Of a stretch of 64,000 nucleotides of DNA, positions 3,070-63,575 are shown piece after piece. Position 1 is the first letter of the stretch; each line of letters opens with the position of its first letter. Below the pieces are notes generated by a model. The model saw only the letters and a list, made by a program, of their open reading frames with translations. It was not told where the DNA came from and did not search any database. This DNA is from Nonlabens sp. (GTDB lineage: Bacteria > Bacteroidota > Bacteroidia > Flavobacteriales > Flavobacteriaceae). The translations under genes were made by a program, and so were the position numbers. Location of the stretch: NCBI GenBank assembly GCA_020630715.1, contig JAHDIQ010000001.1, forward strand, positions 492,513-556,512. The letters are read 5' to 3'.

Positions 3070-3085
3070 CGCTTTCGCGAAAGCG
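3070..3085. repeat. dispersed palindrome copy 1 (intergenic)
   Basis: Perfect CGCTTTCGCGAAAGCG between two divergent genes, followed on the right by AAATCC, a flank shared with the copy at 51404. Confidence 0.9.
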
Positions 3086-3133
3086 AAATCCAAAATATCC
3101 CACAGATCCTAAGGTATCTCGTGATTATTAAAA

Positions 3134-3141
3134 TATTTTTG
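3134..3141 (+). promoter_or_regulatory. TAnnTTTG -7 element for the 3164 gene
   Basis: TATTTTTG matches the Bacteroidota -7 consensus and ends 22 bases before the ATG at 3164. No convincing -33 TTTG was picked out. Confidence 0.45.
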
Positions 3142-3163
3142 ATAATCTACTGTTGTATCTAGG

Positions 3164-6100
3164 ATGAGGTGTACCATTGTTTTACTACTACTATTGTTTA
3201 GCGCATTAAGCGTCGCACAAGAATACGAGAATGTGGTTACAAAACGCATCGCAGTAAGAGACAGCGTGCAACTGGATAGCGTGAGTTTAATACCTAGTTA
3301 CTTTAAGGTGAAAGACTTTAAAGGAACGGTTATCGATAGTACGACGTACATCGTCGATTTTCCCAAAGCAGTTATTTATTTCAATCAAAACAAAGCTTTT
3401 TTACCAAATAGTCTTGCGATTTCTTATTTACCAGTTCCAAAGTTTTTAACGCGTTCCTACCAGACCTATGATGAGAGCGTGATTGTTCCTAACGAAAGTA
3501 CTACAGAGCGATTAGTAAAATTGCAAAAGCCAACTATACAGCGCAGTTACGTTCCATTTGATGGATTGAATACTACTGGCTCAATTACTCGTGGATTACG
3601 CGTTGGAAATAACCAAAACAGCGTCGTAGACAGTGAACTAGACTTGCGTATTACGGGACAATTGTCTGATAAGGTGGCCTTGCGCGCCTCTATTCAGGAT
3701 GCAAATGTGCCACAAACCCAAAACGGTTACTCACAACGACTGGATGAATTTGACCAGATTTTTATTGAACTATACAGCGATGAATGGTCTATACGCGCTG
3801 GTGATGTAGACCTACAGCAATCAGGTTCTCATTTCAATAATTTCACAAAACGCGTTCAGGGAATTAGCGGTGCGATTCAATTTAAAGGCGACGATTCTCA
3901 AGGATATGCGCAAGCCGCTGGAGCTTTAGTACGTGGGATTTTTAATATTTCGCGATTTACAGGTCAGGAAGGAAATCAAGGACCGTATAAATTAACGGGT
4001 CGCAATGGTGAATTATTTATTCTAGTAGTTTCTGGAAGTGAGCGTGTGTTTGTAAATGGTGTTCCCTTAACGCGTGGTGAAAATGCAGATTATATTATTG
4101 ATTACAACGCTGGTGAACTGCGATTTAATCCCACATTTCCTATCACTAGTGAAATGCGTATTTCTATAGAATACCAGTACAGCGAGCGTAATTTTACCAG
4201 ATTTGTAGGCTATGGCGCTGGTGGTTATAGCACCGAGAAATTTTCTGTGGAAAGCTATGTGTACACAGAATCTGATGCAAAAAACCAGCCACTACAACAA
4301 AACCTGAGTGAAGATCAAGTTGCCGTTCTTGCAAACGCTGGTGATGATGAAAATCTATTCCTAGCACCTAGCGCGGTAGAAGATACTTTTTCTGAAAATA
4401 AAATCCTGTACCGTCGCGAGATCATAGGTGGTGTGGAACGATTTGTGTTTTCGCAGGATGCAAATGAGCAGTTGTTCAATGTGCGTTTTTCTAATGTAGG
4501 TCCTAATCAAGGAAACTACAGGCTGGTTAATGATCAGGCGATTTCAAATATCTATGAATTTGTAGCACCTATTGCTGGTGTAGCACAAGGAGATTTTGAA
4601 CCTGTGGTGCGACTTTTTGCACCGGAGATTCTGAGTATTGCAGGAGTAAAGGCCAGTTATCAACCTACTGCAACTACTAACATCGCGACAGAACTAGCCG
4701 CTAGTAGCAACGATCTCAACAGATTTTCAAATATAGATGATGGGAATAATCAGGACGTCGCCGCAAAACTTACCGTAGCACAGCGATTGTGGAAAAAGGA
4801 TTCCTTAACCTATGTAAACGCCACCGTAAATGCAGATTATATAGGCGAAAATTTTAGAAACGTAGAGCGTGTTTATAATATTGAGTTTAATCGCGACTGG
4901 AACCTAGAAGAAACACTAGGCAATCAGTTCTTTACCAGTGCTGGTCTAGAGTACGTTCAGGACAGCACCTTACGTGCTAATTATCAACTGCAACACTTGG
5001 AATTTGCAAACACCTACAATGGTAATCGTCATACGGTAGATGGATGGTATCGTAATCGTGGATGGGAATCTCGCTTTCGCGGAAGCGTATTATCCACAAA
5101 CGGTACTGCCCAGAATTCACAATTTAGTCGGGCAACAGCAGATGTGGTGAAGCGACTGAAAAACAAATGGATAGGCGCGCGACTGGATCAAGAAGATAAT
5201 CAGCAACGCATTACAGCAACAGATGAGTTAACGCAATTATCACAGCGATTTCTGGGTTATGAAGTCTATGCTGGAATAGGTGATAGCACCGCAACTTTTG
5301 TAGAAATAGGTTACAGAGATCGTGTGAATGATAGTTTGCGCGATAATCAATTACAGCGCGTGAATCGTTCTAATGATTATTATATGAACGCACAACCTAT
5401 TAAAAATGAATTGAGTAGCCTACGTGTTTTTGCAAATTATAGGATTTTAAAGTCTCAAATAGATGGCGTAGCAGATGAAGTGAGTTTTAATAGCAGGTTG
5501 CAATATCAGCGTAAGTTTTTTGACAAAAAAGTGCTTTTAAATACAGCTTATGAAACCAATAGCGCGACCATACCACGACAGGATTTTACTTATGTTGAGG
5601 TGAATCCTGGTCAGGGAACGTTTACATGGATTGATTATAACAATGATGGTATTCAGGATTTAAACGAATTTGAAGTAGCCCAATTTCAGGATCAAGGTCG
5701 TTACGTACGCGTGCTATTACCTAATCAGGTCTTTTTACCAACGCACCAAAACAAATTTAGCACCACACTTACCATGAATCCTGCTTCATGGAGTGGCAAT
5801 TCTGGTGTAAAAAAACTACTGAGTCATTTTTACAATCAGTCCAGTTATTTAATAGATCGTATGGTGCAACGCGATGGAAATACCTTTGAGCTAAATCCAT
5901 TTACGGCTAGCGATGATCAATTAGGATTGAATTTAAATTTTAGAAATAGTTTGTTTTTTAATCGTGGGAAACAACACTTTACGACTAATTATACCTATTT
6001 AAGTACTGCTACAGAAAACTTGCAAAGCATAGGTAGTTTAAGTAGTGATTTACGCAGTCACCAGCTAGGATTTAATCATAAGATAAAGGAAAGCTGGTTA

Positions 6101-8162: not shown

Positions 8163-8188
8163 AATTATGCTTTCGCGAAAGCATAATT
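8163..8188. repeat. dispersed palindrome copy 3, longest arms (26 bp)
   Basis: The core TTTCGCGAAA lies inside a perfect 26-bp palindrome with AATTATGC and GCATAATT arms, in the glyS-methyltransferase gap. The outer base pairs differ from the consensus yet stay complementary. Confidence 0.9.
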
Positions 8189-10143: not shown

Positions 10144-10836
10144 ATGAAAATGCAGTTATGGATGAAAGATTTTTTTGGGCTGTGGTATCCGCCAGTTTGT
10201 GTGGGATGCGACAGCACACTTTCTACCGGTGAAAAAGTATTATGTACCAGTTGTTTATCTAGCTTACCGCTTACTGATTTTCACAAAGGAAATGACCAAT
10301 TATTACGAGATTTATTTTTTGCGCGTATTGAAATTGAGTATGCGACTAGTTTGTTTTACTATGAGAAAATAGGCACTGTACAGCAAATGATGCACCAGTT
10401 AAAATATGGTGGTCAGGAATATATTAGCGATTATTTAGGTACGTGGTTAAGTAGTGAGCTCAATGAATCTTTGAGTTTTCAGGATATTGATCTTGTTATT
10501 CCAGTTCCTGTGCATGAGAAAAGGTTAAAAACTAGAGGCTATAATCAGGTGAGTGGTTTTGGTAAAGCACTGGCTGTAGGTTTAGGTGCACGCTTTCGCG
10601 AAAGCGTCATCACTAAAACCCGTAATACTATAAAACAGGCACAATTGAATCAATCGCAACGTATAGATGAACGTAAATCGCCTTATAAATTAACGGAAGC
10701 CGTAGCTGAAGGAAGTCACATCTTGCTGGTGGATGATGTCGTAACTACTGGAACCACACTGGTATTGTGCGCCAGAGAATTACTCAAAATACCCGATGTA
10801 AAGATTTCTATTGCGACTATGGCGATTGCGGTATAA
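10144..10836 (+). CDS. comF: ComF family phosphoribosyltransferase-like protein
   Basis: 230 residues. The N-terminal zinc-finger cysteines are Cys19, Cys22, Cys34 and Cys37, and a phosphoribosyltransferase domain carries the PRPP loop VDDVVTTGTT at 196-205. In transformable bacteria ComF helps take incoming single-stranded DNA across the inner membrane into the cytoplasm; dprA, another competence gene, lies at 61.8 kb. A perfect dispersed palindrome lies in the gene and encodes ARFRESV around residues 149-155. The Ig-like lipoprotein gene follows 29 bases later, probably in the same transcript. A purely metabolic role remains possible because many non-competent bacteria also keep comF. Confidence 0.92.
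   Translation: MKMQLWMKDFFGLWYPPVCVGCDSTLSTGEKVLCTSCLSSLPLTDFHKGNDQLLRDLFFARIEIEYATSLFYYEKIGTVQQMMHQLKYGGQEYISDYLGTWLSSELNESLSFQDIDLVIPVPVHEKRLKTRGYNQVSGFGKALAVGLGARFRESVITKTRNTIKQAQLNQSQRIDERKSPYKLTEAVAEGSHILLVDDVVTTGTTLVLCARELLKIPDVKISIATMAIAV
10591..10606. repeat. dispersed palindrome copy 4 (in comF)
   Basis: Perfect CGCTTTCGCGAAAGCG inside comF, read as RFRES. Confidence 0.9.
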
Positions 10837-13325: not shown

Positions 13326-14462
13326 TTATAATCGGTTTAAAGTCTGAGCCGCTTTGATGAGTTCTTCATCTTCTTTGGCAAAACAAAATCGCAACATATG
13401 TGGATCATGTCCGTCCATAAAAACAGAAATAGGAATAGAAGCAATTTTGTGATTGATGGTTAACGCTTTCGCGAAAGCGAGATCACCTTCATCACGTAAT
13501 CTAGAATAATCAATTAACTGAAAATAAGAACCTTGTGATGGCGTGATCCTCAATTTTTCATTATCTATCATACCGATGAATAAATCACGTTTGCGCTGGT
13601 AAAAGGTTCCTAATTCTAGATAGTGCTTAGGTTCTTGCAAGTATTGAGATAATGCCACCTGACTAGGATGATTGATGCAAAAAACCACCTGCTGGTGAAT
13701 TTTCATAAATTCCTTCATCAGGTGATCAGGCGCAAGACAATAACCTGTTTTCCATCCTGTGATATGAAAGGTTTTACCAAAACTTCCAGTAATAAAACTG
13801 CGTTCTCTTAATCCTGCATATCGTGCAGCGCTGTGGTGTTCACGCTGGTCAAAAATCATGTGCTCATAAACCTCATCACTAATCACGATAAGATCATTTT
13901 TAACAGCAAGTCGTTCTAGTGACAACATATCGTCATGAGTAAATACATAACCACTAGGATTGTGTGGTGAGTTCACGATGATCATTTTAGTACGTGTGGT
14001 AATCGCATCTTTTACTTGGTTCCAGTCGACTTTAAAATCAGGTAAATGGAGTGGCACTTTTATGGTCGTTCCGCCAGCGATGGCGATAGCAGGTTCATAG
14101 CAGTCATAGGCTGGCGTGAGAATAATGACTTCATCACCTTTATGGATACACGCTTGTATAGCTGTAAAAATCGCTTGAGTTGCACCAGCGGTAATGCATA
14201 TTTCCTGATCTGAATGATATAAATGGCCATGTTGTTCTTGCGTCATCGTTGCAATAGCATGTCGCAATTCAGGTACACCAGTCATAGGTGCATACTGATT
14301 ATGATCGTTATCTATAGCCTTTTTAAACAGTTCTTTAAGCGCAAGATCTACTTTAAAACTAGGAAATCCTTGTGATAAGTTCAGCGCATTATGTTCACGA
14401 GCTAGCGCACTCATAGTAGCAAATATGGATGGCGGATTATTAGGAAGTTTTGACTGGATCAT
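13326..14462 (-). CDS. methionine aminotransferase-like (YbdL/KAT type), PLP-dependent
   Basis: 378 residues of a class I/II aminotransferase. The PLP-binding lysine is Lys230 (GSFGKTFHITGWK), with NSPHNPSG at 164-171 and SDEVYE at 195-200. The sequence most resembles YbdL and glutamine transaminase K, which transaminate ketomethiobutyrate (methionine salvage), phenylpyruvate and related ketoacids. It is the first gene of a two-gene operon with the omega-amidase. A dispersed palindrome near the C-terminal end is read as AFAKA. Only about 40 bases separate the start from the lepA terminator. Confidence 0.88.
   Translation of the reverse strand: MIQSKLPNNPPSIFATMSALAREHNALNLSQGFPSFKVDLALKELFKKAIDNDHNQYAPMTGVPELRHAIATMTQEQHGHLYHSDQEICITAGATQAIFTAIQACIHKGDEVIILTPAYDCYEPAIAIAGGTTIKVPLHLPDFKVDWNQVKDAITTRTKMIIVNSPHNPSGYVFTHDDMLSLERLAVKNDLIVISDEVYEHMIFDQREHHSAARYAGLRERSFITGSFGKTFHITGWKTGYCLAPDHLMKEFMKIHQQVVFCINHPSQVALSQYLQEPKHYLELGTFYQRKRDLFIGMIDNEKLRITPSQGSYFQLIDYSRLRDEGDLAFAKALTINHKIASIPISVFMDGHDPHMLRFCFAKEDEELIKAAQTLNRL
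13464..13479. repeat. dispersed palindrome copy 5 (in aminotransferase)
   Basis: Perfect CGCTTTCGCGAAAGCG, read on the minus strand as AFAKA. Confidence 0.9.
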
Positions 14463-16452: not shown

Positions 16453-18867
16453 ATGAAATACTTAAAAATAGCTATGTTATTATTGCTACCATTATGTTCG
16501 GTAGCGCAGCATAATCTTACAGCACGTCTGGTGGATAAGGATACACAGCCTGTTGCGTTTGCAAATGCATTGCTATTTCAAATGCCTGATTCTACTTTTT
16601 ACAAGGCGACCACTTCAGATGAATTAGGAAAGTTGTCATTTACAGATGTAGTGGACGGCGACTATGCTCTTATGATTTCTTCAGTGGGATATGTTACGCT
16701 TTCGCGAAAGCTAACCATCAACAGCTCTACAGATTTAAATGATCTTGTGATGTCCATAGATCAAGAACAGTTAGATGCGGTAACTGTAACTGCCAAAAGA
16801 CCAACCGTACAACGCAAGCCAGATCGTATTATTTTTAATGTAGAAAACACGAGTGTAAGTACTGGTAATGCAGCACAAATTTTAAGATCTACACCAGGTA
16901 TTTTTGAAATGAATGGTTCTTATACTGTAAAAGGAAGCACTGCTCAAGTATATATTAATAATAAAAGAGTTTTTCTCACTGATGATGAGTTGCAGCAATT
17001 ACTTAATGGCTATAATGGCGATAATGTAAAAAGTGTTGAAGTTATTTTTAATCCACCAGCTATGTATGATGCAGATGGTGGCGCAGTTATTAATATCATA
17101 ACTAGTAAAAATGTTTCTTTGGGGTACAAAGGTTCTGTAACAGGTAACTGGCAAATAGATGAATTTGCTAAGTATCAGATAGGAACCAGTCAATTTTATA
17201 AAAAAGATTGGTTAAGTGTCTATGCAAACTATAATTATAATCCACGTAAAGATTTAACCCTTCAAGAGTCTGAAGTAGGTTTTTTTAATAGCGATGGAAC
17301 GAGAAACTCTCGTTGGTTTACAGATGTGGAAGCTATTTCTAGATCAGATGCCCATGCTCTTAACAGCATTATAGACATTACACTAGATGAAAAGAATACT
17401 TTGTCATTTATGGGATACCTAGGTCTTAATAATGATAGAGAATTAGATAGGGATGTAAGTACTACAATAGTACCTCAAGGTGCTACCATGTTTAGTGGCT
17501 TTGATACAGCATCTAGAATAGGACAGGATTATTCTAGTGGTCATGCAAATTTATCGTGGTTGAGTGTGCTAAATGATAATGGTGGTAACCTAAAAGTAGA
17601 AGGAACCTATATTTTTACGAATAACGAGAATACTCAGAATTTTGCCAGCCGTTTCTTTGATAATACTCAAACCACAACTAGAATAAATAATTTTAGAACT
17701 ATAGGATTTCAAAAAGCAAATATTTTTTCTGGAAAAGTAGATTATATAGATTTATTGGGGTCCTACGTTTTTTCAACAGGATTAAAGTTTACAAACATAT
17801 CTAACCAAAGTAATCAAGACTTTTTTGATACTGATATGGGAGCAGTACGAGATCCATCACTATCTGATAATTTTCTTTATGATGAACAGATTTATGCAGC
17901 ATACTCTCAGTTGTCACGAGACTGGGATAAATGGGCTTTTAGCGCCGGATTGAGATTAGAACAAACGAACGTAGAAGGTAATAGTGTTTCACTAGGATTG
18001 GTTAATAAGCAAAACTATTTAGGTGTTTTCCCTAATCTATCTATTAGCAATAATTTAAATGATAAAAACTATCTAAACTTAAGTTATAAACGCTCTATAG
18101 AACGTCCTGGTGCTGGAGATTTAAATCCGTTCAACAACTTTATTAATGATAATAACTTAAGTACTGGAACTCCAGACTTAATTCCTGCTTTTACTAACAA
18201 AATAACGCTGGGCTGGGTTTATAATAATGAGCTTTTTATAGATGCCTATTATATACATACAGAGAATATGATAAATACTGTTGCTTTTCAAAATAACGAT
18301 ACTAATGTACTTGAACAGCGGTCTATTAATTTGAATTATGAATTCCAATACAGTATAGATGCAATGCTTTATAAAGACTTAAGCGATAGCTGGAGTAATA
18401 CTACTTCAGTAAGTATGTTTTATATGGAAAACGAAGTTAACGCCTTGCAATCTCCCATCAGACCGCAACAATCAAATACAATAGGATTTTATATTGATAT
18501 GTATAATAATTTTGAATTATCTAAAGATAAAAGTCTAAAAATGAATATTAATACTTCATACGTGTCAAGTATTCTATTTGGTACATATCTGTATAAAAAT
18601 CTTTTTACGAGTGAAATAGGTTTTTCTAAAAGTATATGGAATAAGCGTGCTTTACTAACTGCCAGTTATAGGGATATTTTTAATACAGCAAACCAACCTT
18701 TCACTACTAGATATCAAAATCAAGATAACAGTGAGTTTATTATAGCAGAGACGCAATTATTTAGTTTAGGATTCACTTATAAATTTGGAAACTTTAGATT
18801 AGAAAGTCGTGAACCCGAACCTTTAGAGGAGCAAGAACGTACTGGTAAAAAAACCAAAGGATTTTAA
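16453..18867 (+). CDS. TonB-dependent receptor family outer-membrane beta-barrel protein
   Basis: 804 residues. A signal peptide ending at CSVAQ is followed by a carboxypeptidase-regulatory-like beta-sandwich (about 22-100, with ARLVDKDTQPVAFANALLFQ and ISSVGY). A plug-like region (RPTVQRKPDRIIFNV, NPPAMYDADGGAVINIIT) and a long beta-barrel of the OMP_b-brl_3 type come next. Proteins of this group import unknown nutrients or act as barrel-only transporters. No SusD partner lies next to it. A dispersed palindrome lies at the end of the regulatory domain and is read as LSRK. It is probably a single-gene transcript. Confidence 0.9.
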   Translation: MKYLKIAMLLLLPLCSVAQHNLTARLVDKDTQPVAFANALLFQMPDSTFYKATTSDELGKLSFTDVVDGDYALMISSVGYVTLSRKLTINSSTDLNDLVMSIDQEQLDAVTVTAKRPTVQRKPDRIIFNVENTSVSTGNAAQILRSTPGIFEMNGSYTVKGSTAQVYINNKRVFLTDDELQQLLNGYNGDNVKSVEVIFNPPAMYDADGGAVINIITSKNVSLGYKGSVTGNWQIDEFAKYQIGTSQFYKKDWLSVYANYNYNPRKDLTLQESEVGFFNSDGTRNSRWFTDVEAISRSDAHALNSIIDITLDEKNTLSFMGYLGLNNDRELDRDVSTTIVPQGATMFSGFDTASRIGQDYSSGHANLSWLSVLNDNGGNLKVEGTYIFTNNENTQNFASRFFDNTQTTTRINNFRTIGFQKANIFSGKVDYIDLLGSYVFSTGLKFTNISNQSNQDFFDTDMGAVRDPSLSDNFLYDEQIYAAYSQLSRDWDKWAFSAGLRLEQTNVEGNSVSLGLVNKQNYLGVFPNLSISNNLNDKNYLNLSYKRSIERPGAGDLNPFNNFINDNNLSTGTPDLIPAFTNKITLGWVYNNELFIDAYYIHTENMINTVAFQNNDTNVLEQRSINLNYEFQYSIDAMLYKDLSDSWSNTTSVSMFYMENEVNALQSPIRPQQSNTIGFYIDMYNNFELSKDKSLKMNINTSYVSSILFGTYLYKNLFTSEIGFSKSIWNKRALLTASYRDIFNTANQPFTTRYQNQDNSEFIIAETQLFSLGFTYKFGNFRLESREPEPLEEQERTGKKTKGF
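16697..16711. repeat. dispersed palindrome copy 6 (in TonB-type receptor)
   Basis: CGCTTTCGCGAAAGC followed by TAAC rather than G; read as LSRK. Confidence 0.85.
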
Positions 18868-20263: not shown

Positions 20264-21481
20264 TTATAATTTTGCCTGAGCAATTAAGGTCTCATTAATT
20301 CTTTTTGAGGCTACATAGCTAGCTAAGATTCCTAGAACAGATATCGTACCTAACGCAATCACAATATTGCTAAACTGCATTGCAAACGGATATGGTAACT
20401 CTGGAGCGATGTGCACAATTTTGAAGTGTATTTGTGCACTAACAATAGCAATACCTATTAATAGACCTATAATTCCACCTATAATAGTCATTAAACTGCC
20501 TTGAATAAAAAATACACGCCTTAAATCTGTAATGCTAGCGCCTAGATCTAGTAATGTTTTAAGGTTCTTTTTCTTATCTAGAATCATCATTATGATAGAT
20601 CCTATGACGTTAAATAGTGCAATGATTAAAACTAAAGTGAATATCAAATAAACCGCTAGATTCTCTGAATTAAGCATTTTATAAAGCGCGTCATTAAGTT
20701 GTAATTTATTTTTAATGACTATGTCATCACCCATAATTGCGGTGATCGCGGCTCTTACCTCATCTTCATTTGCACTAGGTGCTAGTTTAAAAGCGACACC
20801 ACTTGCAGTAGTTTCTGAGTAATTAAGTAAGGTTTGCGCAGCAGTAATGGTAGAAAATATATAATTGCTATCTAAATTTTCATTCACACTGAACAGATCT
20901 GATACAAGCACATCGATTTGTGAGAATGAATTTTTATAATTCATTAAATTGATGGCGTTTTTACCAGGCTTAGGCACCATAATTTGTAAATAATCACTGT
21001 AATTATTTACCGTTAGTGATAATTCATCTGCAATCGCAGCGCCTACGACTACCTGCACATCTGTAGATCCTAGCCAGTTACCATAAAAGGTTATAGAATC
21101 GGTGCGTATGATTTTTTGGTAATCTGCGTCTACACCTTTAATGTAGGCGATGTCATTTTTACCGTTATAATTTAAAAACACCTTCTCTTCTACATAAACA
21201 CTTACTTCTTCTATACCAGTAATATCTTGTAGTTTACGCTTTCGCGAAAGCGGCATCTCTACAACCTTTCCCGTTAAAGGAGTCACCTGTAGATCTGGAT
21301 CAAAATAACTGCTAAAAGCGGTACTAAAATCTTTAAGTCCAGAAAAACCGGAAAGGACGATAAACAACGCTGCTGTACCTACGATGGTAATAATGAAACT
21401 GAGGATATTAATGATATTAATGGCGTTCTTGCCATTTTTAGACACGAGATACCTGCGCGCTATGTAGAACGAAAAGCTCAC
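20264..21481 (-). CDS. LolC/FtsX-type ABC transporter permease
   Basis: 405 residues with the MacB/FtsX permease layout: one N-terminal membrane helix (about 21-43), a large periplasmic domain, and three C-terminal helices (LAVYLIFTLVLIIALFNVIG, MTIIGGIIGLLIGIAIV, IVIALGTISVLGILASYVA). Such permeases move lipoproteins or regulate cell-wall enzymes; the LolC/LolE lipoprotein-release type is the best fit, and no ATPase gene is adjacent. The start is a GTG sharing one base with the rbfA TAG stop, which suggests translational coupling. A dispersed palindrome in the periplasmic domain is read as LSRKR. Confidence 0.88.
   Translation of the reverse strand: MSFSFYIARRYLVSKNGKNAINIINILSFIITIVGTAALFIVLSGFSGLKDFSTAFSSYFDPDLQVTPLTGKVVEMPLSRKRKLQDITGIEEVSVYVEEKVFLNYNGKNDIAYIKGVDADYQKIIRTDSITFYGNWLGSTDVQVVVGAAIADELSLTVNNYSDYLQIMVPKPGKNAINLMNYKNSFSQIDVLVSDLFSVNENLDSNYIFSTITAAQTLLNYSETTASGVAFKLAPSANEDEVRAAITAIMGDDIVIKNKLQLNDALYKMLNSENLAVYLIFTLVLIIALFNVIGSIIMMILDKKKNLKTLLDLGASITDLRRVFFIQGSLMTIIGGIIGLLIGIAIVSAQIHFKIVHIAPELPYPFAMQFSNIVIALGTISVLGILASYVASKRINETLIAQAKL
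21237..21252. repeat. dispersed palindrome copy 7 (in LolC-type permease)
   Basis: Perfect CGCTTTCGCGAAAGCG, read on the minus strand as LSRKR. Confidence 0.9.
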
Positions 21482-27132: not shown

Positions 27133-27176
27133 TATAAAGATCGGTAAAATTTGTGCGTTTACGTTTTTAATAATTT

Positions 27177-27192
27177 CGCTTTCGCGAAAGCG
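27177..27192. repeat. dispersed palindrome copy 8 (accB-accC gap)
   Basis: Perfect CGCTTTCGCGAAAGCG inside an operon gap. No T run follows, so it is unlikely to be a terminator. Confidence 0.9.
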
Positions 27193-27228
27193 TAATCTTC
27201 ACAACAATTCTAACTAAAAAAACATATC

Positions 27229-29307: not shown

Positions 29308-29329
29308 TTACGCTTTCGCGAAAGCGTAA
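29308..29329. repeat. dispersed palindrome copy 9 (intergenic, 22-bp arms)
   Basis: The 16-bp core is extended by TTA and TAA to a perfect 22-bp palindrome between the TPR gene and its receptor. Confidence 0.9.
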
Positions 29330-29367: not shown

Positions 29368-31512
29368 TTAAAGATTATCTAGCTGATTATCGTTACCACC
29401 TATGGTCCAGAAGAAGCCTACAAACACAAAACGATCTGCAGCCTGAGTGATCGCTCTACGATCAAAATTCCCCATTGCGTTAGCTGTATTGCTATACTGA
29501 TAACCAAAAATGTTTTCACGTCCCAGTACATTTGAAACAGAAAAAAACAAGATTTTTTGCTGGTCGATCAGGTATGCCCAGTTGAAATCTAGACTTTGAA
29601 AAGAGCCAGTCTGATCATTTAGAAAACCTGACTGATTAGGATTTGTAAAACTTCTACCACTGGTGTAATTATAGGTCATGCCTACCTGTGATCTTAAGTC
29701 ATCTATCCAGTATTTTGTCACAACACTTAGGTTATGCTTTGCAGCAAAATTAGGCCTCGCTCTTTCTGGGAAATTACCATCCAGTCGCTGTGTATCTAAG
29801 AAGCTATAACTTACCCAATAATCTAGGTTTTTAACACTAGTTTCATCTCTCCAAAACAAGTCTAATCCAGTTGCATAACCGTTACCATCATTAGTAAATT
29901 CACTATTAAATTCTGGTCGTTGCGTATTAAAAGTGATGAGATCATCATAGGATTTATAAAAAGCCTCTGCACGCAACATGCGCTTATTTTTACGGTATAG
30001 GAAATTAAGAATGTAATGATCTGCGTTTTGTGGTGCCAGTTGAGCACTATACTGCAATATGTTATTTTGACCTTGCTGAAAGAATTGTCCGTAGGCTACA
30101 GATGTTTGCAAATGTTCACTTATAGTTACTGCTGCACTTAGCCTAGGTGATACTTTAAATTGATCGCTTAAACCATAGTAATCACCTCTTAATCCAGCTT
30201 TAAATGCTACTTTTTTAGAAAGGAACAGTTCAGCTTCTGTAAATAAACCTGAGTTTGTTGGTTGTACTTCAGTGTCAAATATTCCTGATGCAGTTGTTGC
30301 ATTCTCGCTATAGTTTACCAGAAACTGCTCTGCACCATAATTGATTTTAAAGTAGTTGTTATAGCGTTTACGCAGTTTTAATTTAGCGTGTAATCCAGTT
30401 TCACGTGCTTTTATTTGAGTATCTGCAATAGTAAATTCATTACGATCATGCGCTAGACTAATTCCCGTATCGATTTTCCAGCCGTTTCCTAAAGTTCCTT
30501 TATAATCTAGATTGCTGTAATAGTTATCATTTTGAATACCTATAAAAAAGCCATCTGACAGATTGATATCTTCTTGAATAATGCTAAAATTAGAGTGAGA
30601 ATATGCTCCATAGGCTTTAAATATTCCATCGTCTGTTTTATGACGGTACACTAATTCACCGCTTAAACTTTGAAACGGATCTTCAAACTGATTGTTTTGC
30701 GGAATGATCTCATTATATGGCGCAAGGTTTACGTAGGTGGCGTTTGCACTGATGCTGTTATCGCCCCAAATTTCTGTACGGCCAGCTCCAGCACCTACGG
30801 TCATGAATTGGAATTCTGTTTTTTCTTCTTGTGGGAAATCAGTAGTGTTTAATAATAAAACGCTGGATAATGCATCTCCATATTCTGCACTATAACCACC
30901 AGTAGAAAAGGTAATACCATCAAATAAAAATGGCGAAAACCGACCACGTGTAGGAATGTTACCAGTTACTGGTTGAAATGGACTAAAAACACGGTTTCCA
31001 TCTATAAATGTTTGCATTTCTTCACCACGACCACCGCGCACAAATAGTCTTCCATCATCAGGATTTGCCGTTGTGCCAGGTAGTGTTTGTAGTGCACCTA
31101 TTAAATCACCAGCGGCACCAGCAGTAGTTACAATATCCAGTGGTTTAAGCGTGCTCGCCTTAGAGCTATCGCCAGCTTCTAGACTACCAGCTGTTAGGAT
31201 TACAGAGTTGAGACTGTTTACGCTTTCGCGAAAGCGTATTTCCACATCTTTAAAAGTACTTACAGCACCAGTCTGAATATAATCTTCATAACCTACAAAA
31301 CTAACAATGAGCGTTACCGTACCAGACTCGCCGGTGGTAAAATTAAAGGCCCCATCAATAGCTGTGGTGGCGCCATCATAAGTTCCTTCTACATATACAT
31401 TTGCGCCCATTACGGGCTTGTTTTTTTGATCTTTTACAGTTCCTGAGATTTGTTGCTGCGAGTGGCATAAAAGGCTAACAAAACATGCGATGGATAGAAA
31501 TATACTTTTCAT
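29368..31512 (-). CDS. TonB-dependent receptor with carboxypeptidase-regulatory domain
   Basis: 714 residues. A signal peptide ending at CHSQ is followed by a carboxypeptidase-regulatory-like domain (about 22-92, with ISGTVKDQKNKPVMGANVYVEG). The plug contains LPGTTANPDDGRLFVRGGRGEE and a YSAEYGDALS segment, and the barrel ends near GFFWTIGG. It imports an unidentified substrate using TonB energy. A dispersed palindrome at the end of the regulatory domain is read as IRFRESV. It is probably transcribed with the downstream TPR gene. Confidence 0.92.
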   Translation of the reverse strand: MKSIFLSIACFVSLLCHSQQQISGTVKDQKNKPVMGANVYVEGTYDGATTAIDGAFNFTTGESGTVTLIVSFVGYEDYIQTGAVSTFKDVEIRFRESVNSLNSVILTAGSLEAGDSSKASTLKPLDIVTTAGAAGDLIGALQTLPGTTANPDDGRLFVRGGRGEEMQTFIDGNRVFSPFQPVTGNIPTRGRFSPFLFDGITFSTGGYSAEYGDALSSVLLLNTTDFPQEEKTEFQFMTVGAGAGRTEIWGDNSISANATYVNLAPYNEIIPQNNQFEDPFQSLSGELVYRHKTDDGIFKAYGAYSHSNFSIIQEDINLSDGFFIGIQNDNYYSNLDYKGTLGNGWKIDTGISLAHDRNEFTIADTQIKARETGLHAKLKLRKRYNNYFKINYGAEQFLVNYSENATTASGIFDTEVQPTNSGLFTEAELFLSKKVAFKAGLRGDYYGLSDQFKVSPRLSAAVTISEHLQTSVAYGQFFQQGQNNILQYSAQLAPQNADHYILNFLYRKNKRMLRAEAFYKSYDDLITFNTQRPEFNSEFTNDGNGYATGLDLFWRDETSVKNLDYWVSYSFLDTQRLDGNFPERARPNFAAKHNLSVVTKYWIDDLRSQVGMTYNYTSGRSFTNPNQSGFLNDQTGSFQSLDFNWAYLIDQQKILFFSVSNVLGRENIFGYQYSNTANAMGNFDRRAITQAADRFVFVGFFWTIGGNDNQLDNL
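31221..31236. repeat. dispersed palindrome copy 10 (in TonB receptor)
   Basis: Perfect CGCTTTCGCGAAAGCG, read on the minus strand as RFRES, in the linker after the regulatory domain. Confidence 0.9.
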
Positions 31513-36497: not shown

Positions 36498-37598
36498 CTA
36501 GTTAATGTAAATTCGAGGGACGCGTTTCTGAATTCCCGTTAACAATTCATAAGAAATGGTTCCAGCATGTTCTGCAAAATCACGTGCATTGTGTAATGGA
36601 TCAAAAATAATTACCTCATCACCTGCTTCACATTCTATATGTGTCACATCTACCATAAACATATCCATACAGATGATGCCTAGAGTAGGAACTGCTGTAC
36701 CGTTGATGTAAACTACGGCATTTCCATGACCGTAAATACGGTTAATACCGTCGCCATGTCCTAGTGCGATTACGGCATATCGCATTCTGTTTTTTGCGAT
36801 GAATTGCCTATTGTAACTTACGCTATCTCCAGCCTCTATCCATCGAGTTTGAGAAATAACAGATTTTAAGGTAGCTACTGGTTGTAGTTCTTTGTCAAAT
36901 TTTAAGTCGTTCCCGTAACCATATAAACCTATACCACTGCGCACCATATTAAAATGAGCACTAGGATAATTTAAAATTCCGCTGGTATTAGATTCATGTG
37001 TGATGAAATCGTAAGTTAATGCTGTTTTTAGTTTGCGCTTTATTTCAATAAAACTGTCTATTTGATTTTGAGTAAACGAGTCTTCACTTAAATCTTCACT
37101 TGCTGCTAGATGCGATTGTAAACCGCGCACTTTCACAGATGGATTTTCCTGTACTTTTTTAATGACTTTTTCTAAATCTTTGGGATCTATTCCTATACGG
37201 TTTAATCCAGTGTTGAATTCTAAATGAATCGGGTAGGATTGTTGTTTTTTTGCTTTCGCGAAAGCGATAAAAGCATCCAGCATTTCCACACTATAAATCA
37301 CCGGTTCTAGACATCGATCTATACAAATAGGTAACATGTGTTGTTGCGCATGAAGTACTAAAATAGGTGTAACAATACCGTGATCGCGTAATTCAGTTGC
37401 CTCATCCACATAAGCAGTAGCAAAATAATCTGCGCCTAATTCTTGAAGTTTTTGAGCAATAGGAATGCTACCATGACCGTAAGCATTTGCCTTAACAACG
37501 GCCATGAATAAGGTTTCTGGAGCTAGTTTACTTTTTAAATAATGAAAGTTATGCGCTAGCGCCTTAAGATTGACCTCTAATCTGGTGCCTTTATGCAT
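36498..37598 (-). CDS. alr: alanine racemase
   Basis: 366 residues. The PLP lysine is Lys36 in VVKANAYGHG, and the RSGIGLYGYG and DSVSYNRQF regions carry further conserved residues. It makes D-alanine for peptidoglycan. Its ATG shares one base with the tdk stop (TAATG), so the two are translationally coupled. A dispersed palindrome in an Ala/Lys-rich helix is read as AFAKA. Confidence 0.96.
   Translation of the reverse strand: MHKGTRLEVNLKALAHNFHYLKSKLAPETLFMAVVKANAYGHGSIPIAQKLQELGADYFATAYVDEATELRDHGIVTPILVLHAQQHMLPICIDRCLEPVIYSVEMLDAFIAFAKAKKQQSYPIHLEFNTGLNRIGIDPKDLEKVIKKVQENPSVKVRGLQSHLAASEDLSEDSFTQNQIDSFIEIKRKLKTALTYDFITHESNTSGILNYPSAHFNMVRSGIGLYGYGNDLKFDKELQPVATLKSVISQTRWIEAGDSVSYNRQFIAKNRMRYAVIALGHGDGINRIYGHGNAVVYINGTAVPTLGIICMDMFMVDVTHIECEAGDEVIIFDPLHNARDFAEHAGTISYELLTGIQKRVPRIYIN
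37252..37265. repeat. dispersed palindrome copy 12 (in alr)
   Basis: 14-bp core GCTTTCGCGAAAGC with T in place of the first C; read as AFAKA. Confidence 0.85.
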
Positions 37599-39108: not shown

Positions 39109-39490
39109 GCTATTGCCTTATATTTATTGGATTGCTACTATTTTAATAGTCGCCGTCATGTGCTATTCTGCACAGATGTATTTTTTTAATACTGCTGGAA
39201 TAAAAGACATTTTTGTAGCCTATGGTTACCCAGCTTATCTGGTTATACCGCTTGCTATTGCAAAGGTAGTAGGAGTGATCGTTATCTTATGGAGACCGTT
39301 GCGATGGATTACAGAATGGGCTTATGCAGGTTTTTTCTTTGATTTAATTTTAGCCGTGACGGGACATTATATGGCTGGAGATGGCAGCTGGCTTTTTCCA
39401 TTGCTAGGGATTATTTTTCTTATTGTTTCGCATATGCTAGGTGGCCGAGTACGTGGTGGTAAGTACGCTTTCGCGAAAGCGAAACACTAA
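39101..39490 (+). CDS. DoxX-like integral membrane protein
   Basis: 129 residues with four membrane helices (about 7-28, 45-63, 72-90 and 97-112), as in the DoxX/DoxD family of small quinone-linked membrane proteins. The start is a TTG overlapping the previous gene by eight bases; the next Met lies inside the first helix, so TTG is preferred. The last codons are made by a dispersed palindrome, giving the tail KYAFAKAKH. Its function is uncertain. Confidence 0.75.
   Translation: MNKLLPYIYWIATILIVAVMCYSAQMYFFNTAGIKDIFVAYGYPAYLVIPLAIAKVVGVIVILWRPLRWITEWAYAGFFFDLILAVTGHYMAGDGSWLFPLLGIIFLIVSHMLGGRVRGGKYAFAKAKH
39466..39481. repeat. dispersed palindrome copy 13 (C-terminus of DoxX-like gene)
   Basis: Perfect CGCTTTCGCGAAAGCG read as AFAKA, ending eight codon positions before the stop region and forming the protein's tail. 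Confidence 0.9.
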
Positions 39491-42915: not shown

Positions 42916-42939
42916 ATTACGCTTTCGCGAAAGCGTAAT
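42916..42939. repeat. dispersed palindrome copy 14 (intergenic, 24-bp arms)
   Basis: Perfect 24-bp palindrome: the 16-bp core flanked by ATTA and TAAT, in the divergent gap between the surface protein and rsmI. Confidence 0.9.
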
Positions 42940-43646: not shown

Positions 43647-44696
43647 TTACACCTTAGAAGAATTGTGTTTTTTGAATTTAAGCTTTTCAGATTTCCCTTT
43701 CTTAAAAATATTGTTGCTATTGTAATGTCCTGCGCGTAACTTCTTTTGTTCTTCAAAAGGCAGTTGAATGATATCCTGACATTCTGGACTACAACAGTTT
43801 TCTAATTTTTCCATACAATCTTCACATTGAATAAACAGTAAATGACAGGCATCATTTGCGCAGTTAGTATGCGTATCACAAGGATTACCGCACTGATGGC
43901 AATTTGCAATGACTTCATCACCTATTTTTTCGGCAAGTCTGTGGTCAAAGACGAAGTTCTTTCCCTTGAATTTGTTTTCTAATCCTTTTTCTGACACCTG
44001 TCTGTGATATTCAATGATTCCACCTTCTAGTTGGTACACATCTTTAAAACCTTTATGCTTATAATATGCACTCGCTTTTTCACAACGTATACCACCAGTG
44101 CAATACATCACTAGTTTTTTCTTTTCCTTATGTGCCTTTATTTCTTCTTCTATAATGGGTAAGCTTTCGCGAAAGGTGTCCACATCTGGCGTCCACGCAT
44201 TTTCAAAATGACCTATTTCTGTCTCATAGTGATTGCGCATATCAACCAGAATAGTATCTGGATCTTCAATAAGTTCATTAAATGTTACAGCATCTACATG
44301 TTGTCCTTTATTAGTAACGTCAAAGGTGTTGTCATCCAGTCCATCTGCAACAATTTTGTTGCGCACTTTTACCTTAAGTTTTAAAAAGCTCTCATTATCT
44401 TGTTCTCTAGCGATGTTAAGCCTAACGCCATTTAAGAAATCGATACTATCTAAAAATGTTTTGAACTCCTCAAAACGGTCCCCAGGAACGGATAGTTGCG
44501 CATTAACACCTTCATGAGCTACATAAATACGGCCTAGCACATCCATAGGATTCCAGTGCAGGAATAAATAGTCTCTAAAAAGTTGAGGATTTCCTAATTG
44601 ATGGTACTGATAAAAAGATATCGTGAGCCTTTCTTTACCTGCCTCACGAATTAATTCACGTCTTTCATCAGCACTTAATTTGTTATACAGTTGCAT
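43647..44696 (-). CDS. trhO: tRNA uridine(34) hydroxylase, rhodanese-like
   Basis: 349 residues of the YceA/TrhO family. The N-terminal region is followed by a rhodanese domain with the active-site loop CTGGIRCEKAS; the C-terminal tail is rich in Cys (CHQCGNPCDTHTNC, CEDCMEKLENCC), probably binding metal. It is needed for oxygen-dependent 5-hydroxyuridine formation at tRNA position 34. A shortened palindrome is read as FRES. A TAACTTTG element lies 29 bases before the ATG. Confidence 0.93.
   Translation of the reverse strand: MQLYNKLSADERRELIREAGKERLTISFYQYHQLGNPQLFRDYLFLHWNPMDVLGRIYVAHEGVNAQLSVPGDRFEEFKTFLDSIDFLNGVRLNIAREQDNESFLKLKVKVRNKIVADGLDDNTFDVTNKGQHVDAVTFNELIEDPDTILVDMRNHYETEIGHFENAWTPDVDTFRESLPIIEEEIKAHKEKKKLVMYCTGGIRCEKASAYYKHKGFKDVYQLEGGIIEYHRQVSEKGLENKFKGKNFVFDHRLAEKIGDEVIANCHQCGNPCDTHTNCANDACHLLFIQCEDCMEKLENCCSPECQDIIQLPFEEQKKLRAGHYNSNNIFKKGKSEKLKFKKHNSSKV
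44163..44175. repeat. dispersed palindrome copy 15, shortened (in trhO)
   Basis: GCTTTCGCGAAAG; the perfect part is 12 bp. Read on the minus strand as FRES. Confidence 0.65.
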
Positions 44697-48869: not shown

Positions 48870-48884
48870 CGCTTTCGCGAAAGC
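48870..48884. repeat. dispersed palindrome copy 16 (after terminator)
   Basis: CGCTTTCGCGAAAGC, nine bases past the hairpin; the last base differs from the 16-mer consensus. Confidence 0.85.
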
Positions 48885-49105
48885 ATACTATTAAAACAAA
48901 ATGATCAATATATGGGTGCTTCCTTACAATAGGTAAGTTTAATTTTAAAGCGAAACCTCATTTCCTTTTGATCAAAAATCAAGTTTTTATCCTTTACGTA
49001 AATAATCGTTGAAAAAAGTATTTTGTCGTAAAACAGGAATAAATTTAGTGTCAGCTTTTTATTTAATAAATAATTAACGTTCTTCACTTTTCAAATAAAA
49101 TTTTT

Positions 49106-51403: not shown

Positions 51404-51419
51404 CGCTTTCGCGAAAGCG
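51404..51419. repeat. dispersed palindrome copy 17 (after terminator)
   Basis: Perfect CGCTTTCGCGAAAGCG, ten bases past the hairpin, followed by AAATCC as at 3070. Confidence 0.9.
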
Positions 51420-55382: not shown

Positions 55383-55414
55383 GAAAACCGTTCCTGTGCC
55401 ATGGAGCGGTTTTC
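55383..55414. terminator. bidirectional terminator, barrel gene and plsC-like gene
   Basis: GAAAACCGTTCC/GGAGCGGTTTTC stem with one wobble pair between convergent genes; it overlaps the last base of the plsC-like stop. Confidence 0.8.
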
Positions 55415-56157
55415 TATTTCATATCGTTTTGTAGCGTAGTGAGGATGATGTTTTTTACGCTTTCGCGAAAGCGTACTTTATCATCAGGTAACTTCATACC
55501 ATCAGTAGCAATAGAAACATGCGTTAGAGCGCGCATCCTTCCAGGACCACCATGAAAAAAATGAAACGGAAAACGTTTTTTATTATCAAATAAAGTAACA
55601 GGAAGTACCGGAATTTGATGTTCAATAGCAAGCCTAAAAGCACCATCTTTAAATGTATCCAGTACCACATCTAGATCATCTGGAACGCCACCTTCTGGAA
55701 AAATGCAAATGCTTACACCAGCATCTAGTCTAGCACTCGCACGGTCAAAAACCGCTTTTCTACTCCTAGGATTACTGCGATCTACTAGAATGTTAGTGCG
55801 TTTGTAGAAAAACCCAAATAACGGAATCTTTGCCAGTTCTGCCTTACCTACAAATACAAATGGATTTTTTGAAATAAGCAACATCATCATGATATCTGTC
55901 ATGCTGGTATGATTTGCTACAAGCATATAACTTTGACCTTTTACCATTTCTTGTTCACGCTTAATGACTGGCCAGCATCCCATCCCATAAATAATAATCG
56001 CACTCCATAGTCGCGCCATCTTATAAAAATAGGAATAGGTTTTCTCTGATAAAACAGACAACACTAAAAAAGGAAAAAGAACAATAATAGGTAGCGCGAC
56101 CAGTATATAAAACCATACACGGTATAGTGGCATTAGAATATATCGCAACCAGTTCAC
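55414..56157 (-). CDS. 1-acyl-sn-glycerol-3-phosphate acyltransferase-like protein
   Basis: 247 residues with an N-terminal membrane helix (about 7-32), the acyltransferase motif NHTSMTD (His83, Asp88) and FPEGG near residue 153. It belongs to the PlsC family, which adds the second acyl chain to lysophosphatidate; ornithine- or serine-lipid acyltransferases look alike. A dispersed palindrome near the C-terminus is read as VRFRESVKN. It lies between convergent and divergent genes and is probably transcribed alone. Confidence 0.9.
   Translation of the reverse strand: MNWLRYILMPLYRVWFYILVALPIIVLFPFLVLSVLSEKTYSYFYKMARLWSAIIIYGMGCWPVIKREQEMVKGQSYMLVANHTSMTDIMMMLLISKNPFVFVGKAELAKIPLFGFFYKRTNILVDRSNPRSRKAVFDRASARLDAGVSICIFPEGGVPDDLDVVLDTFKDGAFRLAIEHQIPVLPVTLFDNKKRFPFHFFHGGPGRMRALTHVSIATDGMKLPDDKVRFRESVKNIILTTLQNDMK
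55458..55473. repeat. dispersed palindrome copy 18 (in acyltransferase)
   Basis: Perfect CGCTTTCGCGAAAGCG with TA on both sides, read on the minus strand as RFRES. Confidence 0.9.
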
Positions 56158-60826: not shown

Positions 60827-60862
60827 AACACCTTTAGTTCACAAACTAAAGGTGTTTTTTAT
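60827..60862 (+). terminator. terminator after the 59994 lipoprotein gene
   Basis: AACACCTTTAGTT/AACTAAAGGTGTT stem with a four-base loop and a T run. Confidence 0.9.
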
Positions 60863-61187: not shown

Positions 61188-61715
61188 ATGAAAAATGTAT
61201 TCAAATCAATTTTTTTATTGCTTATGGTAATCTCCATAGCGTCTTGTTCACAGGATGATGTTTTAGATAATCTAGAAGCTCAACCTGAGACAAAAATGGA
61301 TCTAGTTCCTGTTGAAGATGTTTCCATTAACTTCCAAACATATTCAGCGACTTTAAGGCCTGTTGACTTAACAATTTGTCCGGCAAATAATCCGATAGGC
61401 TCTGGTAATGCTCCTATAGGAGTTAGAACGGGTAATAGATCAGCTCAGTTTGCAAGTTCTTATTGGTTAAAAGTTAGAAGAACTCAAGATACTGGTTCTT
61501 CTCTAGAAGTTAAGGTTAAAACACAAAGTCCTAACGGTAGTGATATACTAGATGGCTCACAAGACATTATTATTAATGGTTTAGAGTCAGATTGGATCTT
61601 AGTTGAAAGTGGCGAATTAAATAATACTGATCCAGGACGTATAGGTCTAATAATAGAATCAGTATCAGGACTTCAGCTTGGAGCTAGCACAGCATTCAAT
61701 TACGCATGTCAATAA
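61188..61715 (+). CDS. small lipoprotein of unknown function
   Basis: 175 residues. A lipoprotein signal ending VISIASC is followed by an acidic segment (SQDDVLDNLEAQPE) and a beta-rich domain with one Cys in DLTICPAN and one near the C-terminus (NYACQ), which could pair. No family is recognised. It is the last gene of the two-component neighbourhood and ends before its own terminator. Confidence 0.75.
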   Translation: MKNVFKSIFLLLMVISIASCSQDDVLDNLEAQPETKMDLVPVEDVSINFQTYSATLRPVDLTICPANNPIGSGNAPIGVRTGNRSAQFASSYWLKVRRTQDTGSSLEVKVKTQSPNGSDILDGSQDIIINGLESDWILVESGELNNTDPGRIGLIIESVSGLQLGASTAFNYACQ

Positions 61716-61753
61716 TTCACAATTCAGATAAACTGAATCTAAAATAATTGAGT

Positions 61754-61787
61754 AAACGGGATTTCCTTAATGGATTTCCCGTTTTTA
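61754..61787 (+). terminator. terminator after the 61188 lipoprotein gene
   Basis: AACGGGA/TCCCGTT stem with further internal pairing and a T run, before the convergent dprA gene. Confidence 0.85.
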
Positions 61788-61836
61788 TTTACCTTCAATA
61801 GTACAAACCTCTTTTAACATTAAAGTTAAAAACACT

Positions 61837-62934
61837 TTAAACCAGCATAAACTGTTTTCCAGGCAACGGTTTAATCACTCCTTTTAATTCCATGCTCATT
61901 AATAAAGAAGCTACTTGATGTACCGGTTTATTGATTTCTAGGGCGATGATGTCCAGTAGTTCTTTGTCTTTTTTCTTGAGGTGATTAAAAATGAGTTTTT
62001 CATCATCATTTAATTCTACAAAAAGCTGTTTTTGCACGGCGACGTTGCGTTCTTGCCAGCCTAGGATATAAGGAATATCTGCTGCAGTGGTGAGTAAATG
62101 TGCTTTAGATTGTTTGATCAGTTGATTACAGCCAGCACTGTATTTATCGTTCACACGACCAGGCACGGCAAAAACTTCACGATTGTAAGAGTTAGCTAAT
62201 TCTGCGGTGACAAGTGAGCCACCTTTTGCGGCACTTTCTATAACTACCGTGGCTTCACTTAATCCAGCAATAATACGATTGCGTCCTAAAAAATTATTCC
62301 TATCAAAAGTATCTGTATGCCAGAAATCAGTAATAAAACCGCCGTTTTCCATGACTTTCTCATTGTAGGCTTCATGATTACGCGGATAGGTTTGGTTCAA
62401 TCCGTGCGCCATAACTGCAACAGTTTGCAATCCATGTTCTAGTGCTAGTTGATGAGCTAGAATGTCCACACCATAAGCATAACCACTTACGATAATAGGA
62501 TTTAAAGGTGCAATTCCAGCCATAAATTTATCTAGAAAAGCACTACCGTTAGTGGTGATTTGGCGTGTTCCCACGATACTTAAGATATAAGGATTATCCC
62601 AGTGGATGGTTCCTTTTTCAAAATAAACAATCGGGCCATCCACACAGTACTTCAATCGTTCTGGATAATCATCATCAGTAAAAACACGACAGGTGATGTT
62701 GTGATCTGCGGTGTATTTTAATTCTTTATCGGCTTTATGGAATAGATCTTTGTTAGTGACAAAGGCTGCTTTTTTCTCACCTATTCCTTCTATAGAGGCA
62801 ATCGTAGCAGGTTTTTGCTTAAAAACGTCCTGCGCGCTACCATATTCACGGATCAACCGTTTTGCCATGATATCGCCTATAAGCGGTGCTTTTTTAAGGG
62901 CTAGTAATGCGCGTAATTCTTCTGGTGCGATCAT
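61837..62934 (-). CDS. dprA: DNA processing protein, single-stranded DNA-binding RecA loader
   Basis: 365 residues of the DprA/Smf family. The Rossmann-like core has SIVGTRQ, IVSGYAYGVDILAHQ, ETVVIESAAKGGSLVT and REVFAVPGRV, and a helix-turn-helix-like C-terminus follows. DprA protects incoming DNA and loads RecA in transformation. The gene overlaps the upstream M23 gene by four bases (ATGA), so it is co-translated in an operon with it and scoB. Confidence 0.95.
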   Translation of the reverse strand: MIAPEELRALLALKKAPLIGDIMAKRLIREYGSAQDVFKQKPATIASIEGIGEKKAAFVTNKDLFHKADKELKYTADHNITCRVFTDDDYPERLKYCVDGPIVYFEKGTIHWDNPYILSIVGTRQITTNGSAFLDKFMAGIAPLNPIIVSGYAYGVDILAHQLALEHGLQTVAVMAHGLNQTYPRNHEAYNEKVMENGGFITDFWHTDTFDRNNFLGRNRIIAGLSEATVVIESAAKGGSLVTAELANSYNREVFAVPGRVNDKYSAGCNQLIKQSKAHLLTTAADIPYILGWQERNVAVQKQLFVELNDDEKLIFNHLKKKDKELLDIIALEINKPVHQVASLLMSMELKGVIKPLPGKQFMLV

Positions 62935-63575
62935 AGCTCAAAAATAAAAGGATTAGGATCTAGAACGATCTTTTTATAATGATCTAACTCATTACTTGAG
63001 GCAACACCAGGAAAATCACCGTGGTAATCCAGCATACTGTTCATAACCTGAAAATGTAGGTGTGGTGCATAACCTACGTTCTCATGTGGAGCACCTAGAG
63101 TTGCTATTATTTCGCTTTCGCGAAAGCGTAATCCTACTTCCCAGCCATCCATACTATCCACAGAAAGATGACCATACAAACTGTAGAGTTTCTCACCATT
63201 CCAGTCGTGTTCTAGAATTAATGTAGGACCATAATTACCATGATCATCGTTATTTGCAAAACTGTGTATGATGCCATCCATTATGGTATGAACACTTGTG
63301 CCTGCCGGCGCCCATAAATCAATTCCTAGGTGAATATCGCGCACCGCACCTTTTTGAAAACGGTCACTATTGCGGTATAAAGCGCGCTGTTCTAGGTAAC
63401 CGCCATAAGCTATATACCTATCGGTATCTTTACGTTGTTGATCCAGATACTGCTCAAAAACTTCAATGTCACTTACATCATTGTGATCCCAGTGTGGATT
63501 ATCTATAGATAGATCAATCGGGAAATAGCCGTGTTGACCTAAGGCTGGATCGATGAGGTGTTTTTTGAGTTTCAC
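62931..63575 (-). CDS. M23 family metallopeptidase
   Basis: 214 residues with the LytM fold: the metal His and Asp in HLGIDLWAP, the YGHLS segment and the HLHFQV motif. Such enzymes cut peptidoglycan peptides; no signal peptide is seen, so its location is unclear and a cytoplasmic or indirectly exported form must be considered. The start is a GTG sharing one base with the scoB TAG stop. A dispersed palindrome is read as LRFRESEI. Confidence 0.88.
   Translation of the reverse strand: MKLKKHLIDPALGQHGYFPIDLSIDNPHWDHNDVSDIEVFEQYLDQQRKDTDRYIAYGGYLEQRALYRNSDRFQKGAVRDIHLGIDLWAPAGTSVHTIMDGIIHSFANNDDHGNYGPTLILEHDWNGEKLYSLYGHLSVDSMDGWEVGLRFRESEIIATLGAPHENVGYAPHLHFQVMNSMLDYHGDFPGVASSNELDHYKKIVLDPNPFIFEL
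63113..63128. repeat. dispersed palindrome copy 19 (in M23 peptidase)
   Basis: Perfect CGCTTTCGCGAAAGCG, read on the minus strand as RFRES. Confidence 0.9.

Follow-up and report, generated by a model that had tools for sequence, protein, structure and literature searches.

We analyzed a 64,000-nucleotide stretch of a Nonlabens sp. assembly (GCA_020630715.1, contig JAHDIQ010000001.1, forward-strand positions 492,513 to 556,512; hereafter the window), which is strewn with copies of a 16-bp palindrome, CGCTTTCGCGAAAGCG. Allowing up to three mismatches, there are 19 copies (Table 1), of which 13 are exact, four have one mismatch, one has two (8168) and one has three (44162); seven lie between open reading frames (ORFs) and 12 inside them, with the DNA left of the window taken into account. 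Dinucleotide shuffles of the window yield a mean of 0.10 such copies and never more than one. The first-pass annotation of the window had reported these same 19 places, with 13 full matches, seven copies in gaps and 12 in genes, at a frequency far above chance, and all of this is borne out; 16 of its start coordinates are right, while those given as 8169, 37252 and 44163 fall one base late (true starts 8168, 37251 and 44162). The copy at 44162 is possibly decayed or fortuitous, since three-mismatch counts come near the level of a control palindrome (see below).

The genome of the window (G000; 2.98 Mb in 17 contigs) holds 448 exact copies of the 16-mer against none of a reversed-letter control, and the palindrome is therefore neither a chance product of composition nor limited to the window, the two outcomes that the first-pass annotation had set against its own proposal. 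Exact copies number 180–737 in each of the 22 other Nonlabens genomes searched, and 35 of 36 genomes of other genera have none, the remaining one (G033) having four on a single contig. A survey of the inner 14-mer across 397 Flavobacteriaceae genomes from 237 genera found it to be dense only in Nonlabens (551–664 copies in the four genomes sampled, that of the window included) and two further genera (G248 with 408 copies and G264 with 857); the rest have 1–19 copies (74 genomes) or none (317). G264 appears to be Dokdonia sinensis, which would place Dokdonia among the dense genera. When bacteria and archaea were scanned with a single genome for each species, the 80 stretches listed out of 108 comprised 36 from Dokdonia, 31 from Nonlabens (including BBFL7) and 13 from elsewhere. 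Eighteen stretches of about 20 kb from other genera (L205–L222) contain neither the 14-mer nor any repeated 14-bp palindrome of their own, except for an AT run in one. A text search of the literature returned no match to the 16-mer or 14-mer strings.

Over 464 contiguous kb of G000 that include the window, 98 of the 105 TTCGCGAA octamers sit within GCTTTCGCGAAAGC. The site can be described as a 14-bp core, GCTTYCGCGRAAGC, with a preferred outer C and G and dyad-symmetric arms. On both sides WAAT adjoins the palindrome and is followed by an A/C-rich tract to about +15 (hence a G/T-rich 5′ side); from +21 to +30 a weaker bias toward A/T follows, and faint signal reaches about +50, in profiles that pool related and thus non-independent genomes. 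ORFs (0.735) and gaps (0.719) show a similar arm bias, and the arms of Dokdonia differ in detail from those of Nonlabens. The sequence is strict: copies at zero to four mismatches in the 464 kb number 73, 33, 8, 9 and 8, against 0, 0, 0, 5 and 33 for a control palindrome. The 79 one-mismatch sites, drawn from four slightly overlapping data sets (the G019 stretches L187 and L233 make the spacing and mismatch sets overlap by about 12 kb), deviate at the outermost base in 49 cases, at the third base from the dyad in 22 (20 of them A to G) and elsewhere in only eight. Half-sites outside palindromes occur at or barely above expectation (GAAAGCG, 44 versus 32 expected; CGAAAGCG, 2 versus 1.7; GGAAGCG, 13 versus 13.2). 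The left and right arms show no covariation over 20 pairs (7.44 seen versus 7.43 expected), which favors recognition as duplex DNA and led us to reject a long hairpin. No periodicity of the arms exceeds the 95% null.

The copies are spaced far more evenly than chance would allow. With one-mismatch sites included, the 464 kb contain 106 sites with a mean gap of 4.4 kb and a coefficient of variation (CV) of 0.43; pairs closer than 1.5 kb are absent (36 expected), those at 1.5–2 kb number two (11.9 expected) and those beyond 2 kb are about as frequent as expected. With exact copies alone the CV is 0.72; the one-mismatch variants thus occupy intervals that exact copies leave empty, and they probably function as sites. 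The same deficit of pairs below 1.5 kb is seen in G019 (8 versus 37.5 expected), in a set of 20 stretches, one per Nonlabens genome (7 versus 34.5) and in G248 and G264 taken together (1 versus 6.9). It is not an artifact of having one site per gene, as a null that allows no gene or gap more than one site still gives 24 gaps below 1.5 kb, with a minimum of 13 in 2,000 runs, against the zero seen. All of the 20 stretches sampled along the G019 chromosome have sites (2–10 each), with 51 in the origin half, as placed by parS, and 48 in the terminus half; one of the 20 stretches has 8,095 masked bases. Of the roles that the first-pass annotation had floated, chromosome organization thus remains a candidate, favored by the even spacing and chromosome-wide spread, whereas segregation finds no support: the plot of position against origin and terminus that it had proposed gives equal density in both halves of that chromosome, and parS is present separately.

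The sites are also held in place by selection. Among 638 orthologue alignments drawn from around the glycyl-tRNA synthetase gene, a site with at most one mismatch persists in 41 of 49 pairs whose flanks are less than 65% identical, in 186 of 252 at 65–70% and in 150 of 166 at 70–75%, against 13.5% (of 37), 2.9% and 4.0% of random 16-mer controls in the same classes. The pairs, like those from islands and phages below, are not independent, and although alignments were required to reach 50–60 bp past each side of the site, an identical 16-mer still helps BLAST to extend. At window position 5072 it is the one-mismatch form itself that is kept in the orthologues (Table 1), codon third positions included. 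Alignments of a site with a no-site orthologue are gap-free in 79 of 103 cases, where forms with two mismatches count as no-site and part of the 24 gapped cases are shifted alignments of a site that is present; hence, sites come and go mainly by substitution. Between Dokdonia and Nonlabens only six alignments could be made, two with the site, too few for a comparison. As for placement, 68 of 98 sites lie inside ORFs, in all three frames (28 read AFAKA, 24 RFRES and 16 LSRK), and several of these, as judged by eye, at signal-peptide cleavage positions; the other 30 are intergenic, a fourfold enrichment over the 7.6% of bases between genes. The use of all frames together with the intergenic enrichment suggests that sites settle where protein constraint allows. 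Just one of the 30 intergenic sites falls between convergent genes, whose gaps account for 4,818 of the 35,412 bases between genes, and with most sites inside ORFs an intrinsic terminator can be rejected, as the first-pass annotation had also held.

The palindrome is not confined to the chromosome. There are 50 copies in the 367 kb of 14 virus records, a density biased upward because the records were picked by eye from 41 stretches with many high-G+C singletons left out. All three of those examined for phage genes have portal, head, tape-measure or terminase genes, and five of the 14 have an integrase. Between pairs of phage contigs the site is kept in 34 of 34 cases at 0.85–0.97 flank identity (control 100 of 179), in none of one at 0.80–0.85 (control 11 of 16) and in 4 of 10 below 0.70 (control 0 of 123), the last from doubtful alignments. 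Conversely, two Nonlabens phages that we take to be lytic, P12024L and P12024S (L225, L226), lack the palindrome altogether over 35 kb each, although host density would predict about seven copies; being alike in gene order, they count as roughly one observation. G033 has an island (C18; L223, L224) with genes for heavy-metal efflux, a P-type ATPase and a multicopper oxidase, which has relatives at ten loci in seven genomes of other genera (L249–L258; 71–97% DNA identity in parts), all with the palindrome; a pair spaced 933 bp apart recurs in four genera. Among the matches listed in the species-level scan, L051 and L061, also from other genera, resemble such islands by eye. Island copies have the same kind of arms and are kept in 72 of 127 pairs at 70–80% flank identity versus 18 of 373 controls (6 of 26 versus 2 of 55 below 70%). 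The arm bias is weaker in islands (A/C fraction 0.675, 38 sites) and virus contigs (0.651). Among the temperate-phage-like contigs (L171, L174 and related ones), two share a copy just upstream of the tape-measure gene.

The strict dyad, the need for both halves, the duplex character of the arms and the kilobase-scale exclusion together argue for a dimeric protein inside the cell to which the element serves as a regular landmark, and the purifying selection at fixed positions, the presence in phage-like and island DNA and the lack of an uptake machine of known type (see below) point the same way. We posit, with a probability of about 0.45, that the copies are binding sites for a dimeric DNA-binding protein, each serving about 2 kb on either side, and form a landmark for nucleoid architecture or DNA maintenance. 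Each copy would be bound as duplex DNA by one sequence-specific dimeric protein; with about 2 kb covered in each direction, a second site nearby would be redundant, bring no gain and not be kept, which would account for the pair exclusion. DNA left without a site would gain one by point mutation, as both the pair exclusion and the mostly gap-free alignments suggest. The protein would act inside the cell on any resident DNA, and copies are indeed found on the chromosome, in temperate-phage-like DNA, whose hosts are presumed, and in islands. Such a regular landmark might be, for instance, the place where a protein that spreads along or bridges DNA is loaded or anchored. It is conceivable, though to us somewhat short of an even bet, that this amounts to an undescribed genome-landmark system in which a dedicated protein reads a palindrome every few kb round the chromosome, each governing about 2 kb each way, and resident mobile DNA acquires it.

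Several points weigh against a landmark-binding protein. We found no binding protein and no gene shown to track the palindrome, genes exclusive to the dense genera not having been searched for. Among genomes at least 90% complete, exact copies vary threefold within the genus (255–737), which is more than expected of an essential scaffold. Close pairs do exist (259 and 270 bp), and in the densest 20-kb stretch sampled (L229; G019 C1:291600-311599) there are 10 copies, two of the gaps measuring only 270 and 655 bp. Slight covariation is seen for the four arm pairs nearest the palindrome (2.40 versus 2.17 expected, sd 0.07). Conservation and spacing could also result from a drive through DNA transfer. 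Nor is spacing decisive by itself, because uptake sequences too have been called evenly spaced, a pattern that, in the relevant part of PMC1939737, was at one time taken to point to replication, repair or compaction and later doubted.

DNA transfer leads to the alternative that survives best, even if we consider it unlikely, namely that the palindrome is a self-recognition sequence spread by biased uptake and recombination through a machine other than the type IV pilus. Like the DNA uptake sequences (DUS) and uptake signal sequences (USS) of Neisseriaceae and Pasteurellaceae, as presented in the portion of PMC1939737 available, it has hundreds of copies in and between genes, differs in its arms between lineages and is evenly spaced; its limitation to a lineage and its change by substitution would suit such a history, and redundancy within a recombining fragment could exclude close pairs. 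Another flavobacterium, Riemerella columbina, prefers its own DNA according to the accessible text of PMC7965970, and the window encodes DprA, which is not specific evidence for uptake. However, the uptake sequences described in that part of PMC1939737 are non-palindromic with a graded excess of mismatched forms, whereas the counts here fall steeply to about control level by three mismatches, and temperate-phage-like contigs carry the palindrome. Protein profile searches in 24 genomes, nine of them dense (seven Nonlabens, G248 and G264), placed a PilB/PilT/GspE-type ATPase (PF00437) over the cut-off in one of the seven Nonlabens (G006), neither of the two other dense genomes and two of 24 overall, with weak sub-cut-off matches being widespread. 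With the ATPase missing at that level from eight of nine dense genomes, the uptake role suggested by the first-pass annotation does not hold for the known pilus type, and a literature search found nothing on natural transformation in Nonlabens. The G006 ATPase (C8:126205-127296) is a strong PilB/GspE-type match with no counterpart in the other six tested Nonlabens.

More doubtful is a Chi-like site for the AddAB helicase-nuclease, two-directional by virtue of being a palindrome, with the G/T-rich 5′ arm of each strand being the first single-stranded DNA offered to RecA. In E. coli, Chi lies within GT-rich islands, and RecA has a preference for GT-rich DNA; Chi also resembles the palindrome in occurring genome-wide at about one per 4–5 kb. 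An AddB-type nuclease (PF12705) is encoded by all 24 genomes, and the absence of copies from P12024L and P12024S, both annotated with their own Erf and YqaJ genes, would fit. Yet that nuclease is equally present in palindrome-free genera, known Chi motifs are 5–8 nt long and not palindromic, and close repeats should help such a site rather than be excluded. The near-expected frequency of half-sites counts against the idea as well and disposes of a Chi formed by the half-site alone.

We see only a small chance for an iterated palindrome comparable to HIP1 and tied to a DNA methyltransferase, generated by a mutation or repair bias or serving methylation signaling. HIP1 and the Nonlabens palindrome both spread by substitution, and in both most deviations fall at the ends. 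HIP1 (GCGATCGC) of cyanobacteria is likewise an exact palindrome found genome-wide in genes and gaps of a limited lineage, and is reported with cognate methyltransferases in the relevant sections of PMC4390886. The Nonlabens element differs in being 14–16 bp rather than 8, in having hundreds rather than thousands of copies, and in its spacing exclusion and long dyad arms; creation by mutation would, moreover, predict random spacing. Within the two methyltransferase families examined, C5 (PF00145) and N6/N4 (PF01555), none is common to all nine dense genomes: G006, with 664 copies, lacks both, G022 and G248 lack the C5 type and G000, G003 and G264 lack the N6/N4 type. This also disfavors the modification-enzyme site suggested by the first-pass annotation. 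The HIP1 octamer itself occurs 16 times in the 464 kb of G000 (7.6 expected, both strands counted), and GGTGGTGG 46 times (29 expected).

The operator of a global transcription regulator is very unlikely: a 16-bp palindrome is typical of dimeric regulators and the fourfold intergenic enrichment would agree with one, but most sites lie inside ORFs in all three frames and exclude each other over 1.5–2 kb. ParB and Noc sites are similar in being strict 14–16 bp palindromes with kilobase-scale effects; here, in contrast, there are hundreds of copies with no origin or terminus bias in the one chromosome sampled, and parS is separate. In G000 two sites fitting the parS consensus, one exact and one with a single mismatch, lie 1.9 kb apart (C15: 446357 and 448249) about 44 kb left of the window, which suggests a nearby replication origin region; most of the 24 genomes have such pairs too. 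All 24 have a ParB of about 300 aa, the dense ones as in other genera, and there is no second dedicated ParB beyond extra copies of 602–616 aa in G019, G033 and G075, so that we reject ParB/parS. A mobile palindromic element (REP, BIME or MITE) is scarcely credible despite the hundreds of copies, given the gap-free alignments, flanks that differ between copies beyond the arms and sites inside coding frames.

The known kinds thus fit poorly. Iterated genomic motifs are few (HIP1, uptake sequences and Chi), and we know of no precedent for a chromosome marked off at even intervals by one invariant sequence, which is what a landmark-binding protein, if real, would imply. The function of HIP1 itself is still debated in the part of PMC4390886 concerned with it. 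The palindrome offers a measurable length scale (pair exclusion over about 1.5–2 kb), a strict sequence, a defined taxonomic border and a short-duplex biochemical handle, and would open the function of a genome-wide palindrome to direct experiment in marine bacteria that can be cultured. Its presence may also betray DNA that once resided in Nonlabens or Dokdonia, such as the islands in other genera.

Table 1. Palindrome copies in the window, with one example of the extended element
Feature	Coordinates	Context
Exact copy	3070..3085	Between divergent ORFs, 78 bp before ORF 3164-6571
One-mismatch copy (CGCTTTCGCGGAAGCG)	5072..5087	In ORF 3164-6571; same variant in 10/12 aligned Nonlabens orthologues
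Two-mismatch copy, both outer bases	8168..8183	Between divergent glycine--tRNA ligase (6568-8115) and ORF 8223-9197
Exact copy	10591..10606	In ORF 10144-10836; at most one mismatch in 13/17 aligned orthologues (11 exact), absent in 4
Exact copy	13464..13479	In ORF 13326-14462 (methionine aminotransferase); present in 7/11 aligned orthologues
One-mismatch copy	16697..16712	In ORF 16453-18867 (outer-membrane beta-barrel); not spanned by any orthologue alignment
Exact copy	21237..21252	In ORF 20264-21481 (LolC/E-like permease, below the model's curated cut-off)
Exact copy	27177..27192	Intergenic
Extended element, ~46 bp	27162..27207	G/T-rich arm, ATTW-like, 16-bp palindrome, WAAT-like, A/C-rich arm
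Exact copy	29311..29326	Intergenic
Exact copy	31221..31236	In ORF 29368-31512 (TonB-dependent receptor)
Exact copy	34509..34524	In ORF 32605-34761 (prolyl oligopeptidase)
One-mismatch copy	37251..37266	In ORF 36498-37598
Exact copy	39466..39481	Close to end of ORF 39101-39490
Exact copy	42920..42935	Between divergent genes
Three-mismatch copy	44162..44177	In ORF 43647-44696
One-mismatch copy	48870..48885	Intergenic
Exact copy	51404..51419	Intergenic
Exact copy	55458..55473	In ORF 55414-56157
Exact copy	63113..63128	In ORF 62931-63575

Two neighboring genes of the window (44932-48618 and 49106-51346) encode proteins that look like duplicates, both having fibronectin type III, GEVED and type IX sorting domains, and each is followed by a palindrome copy (48870 and 51404, respectively).

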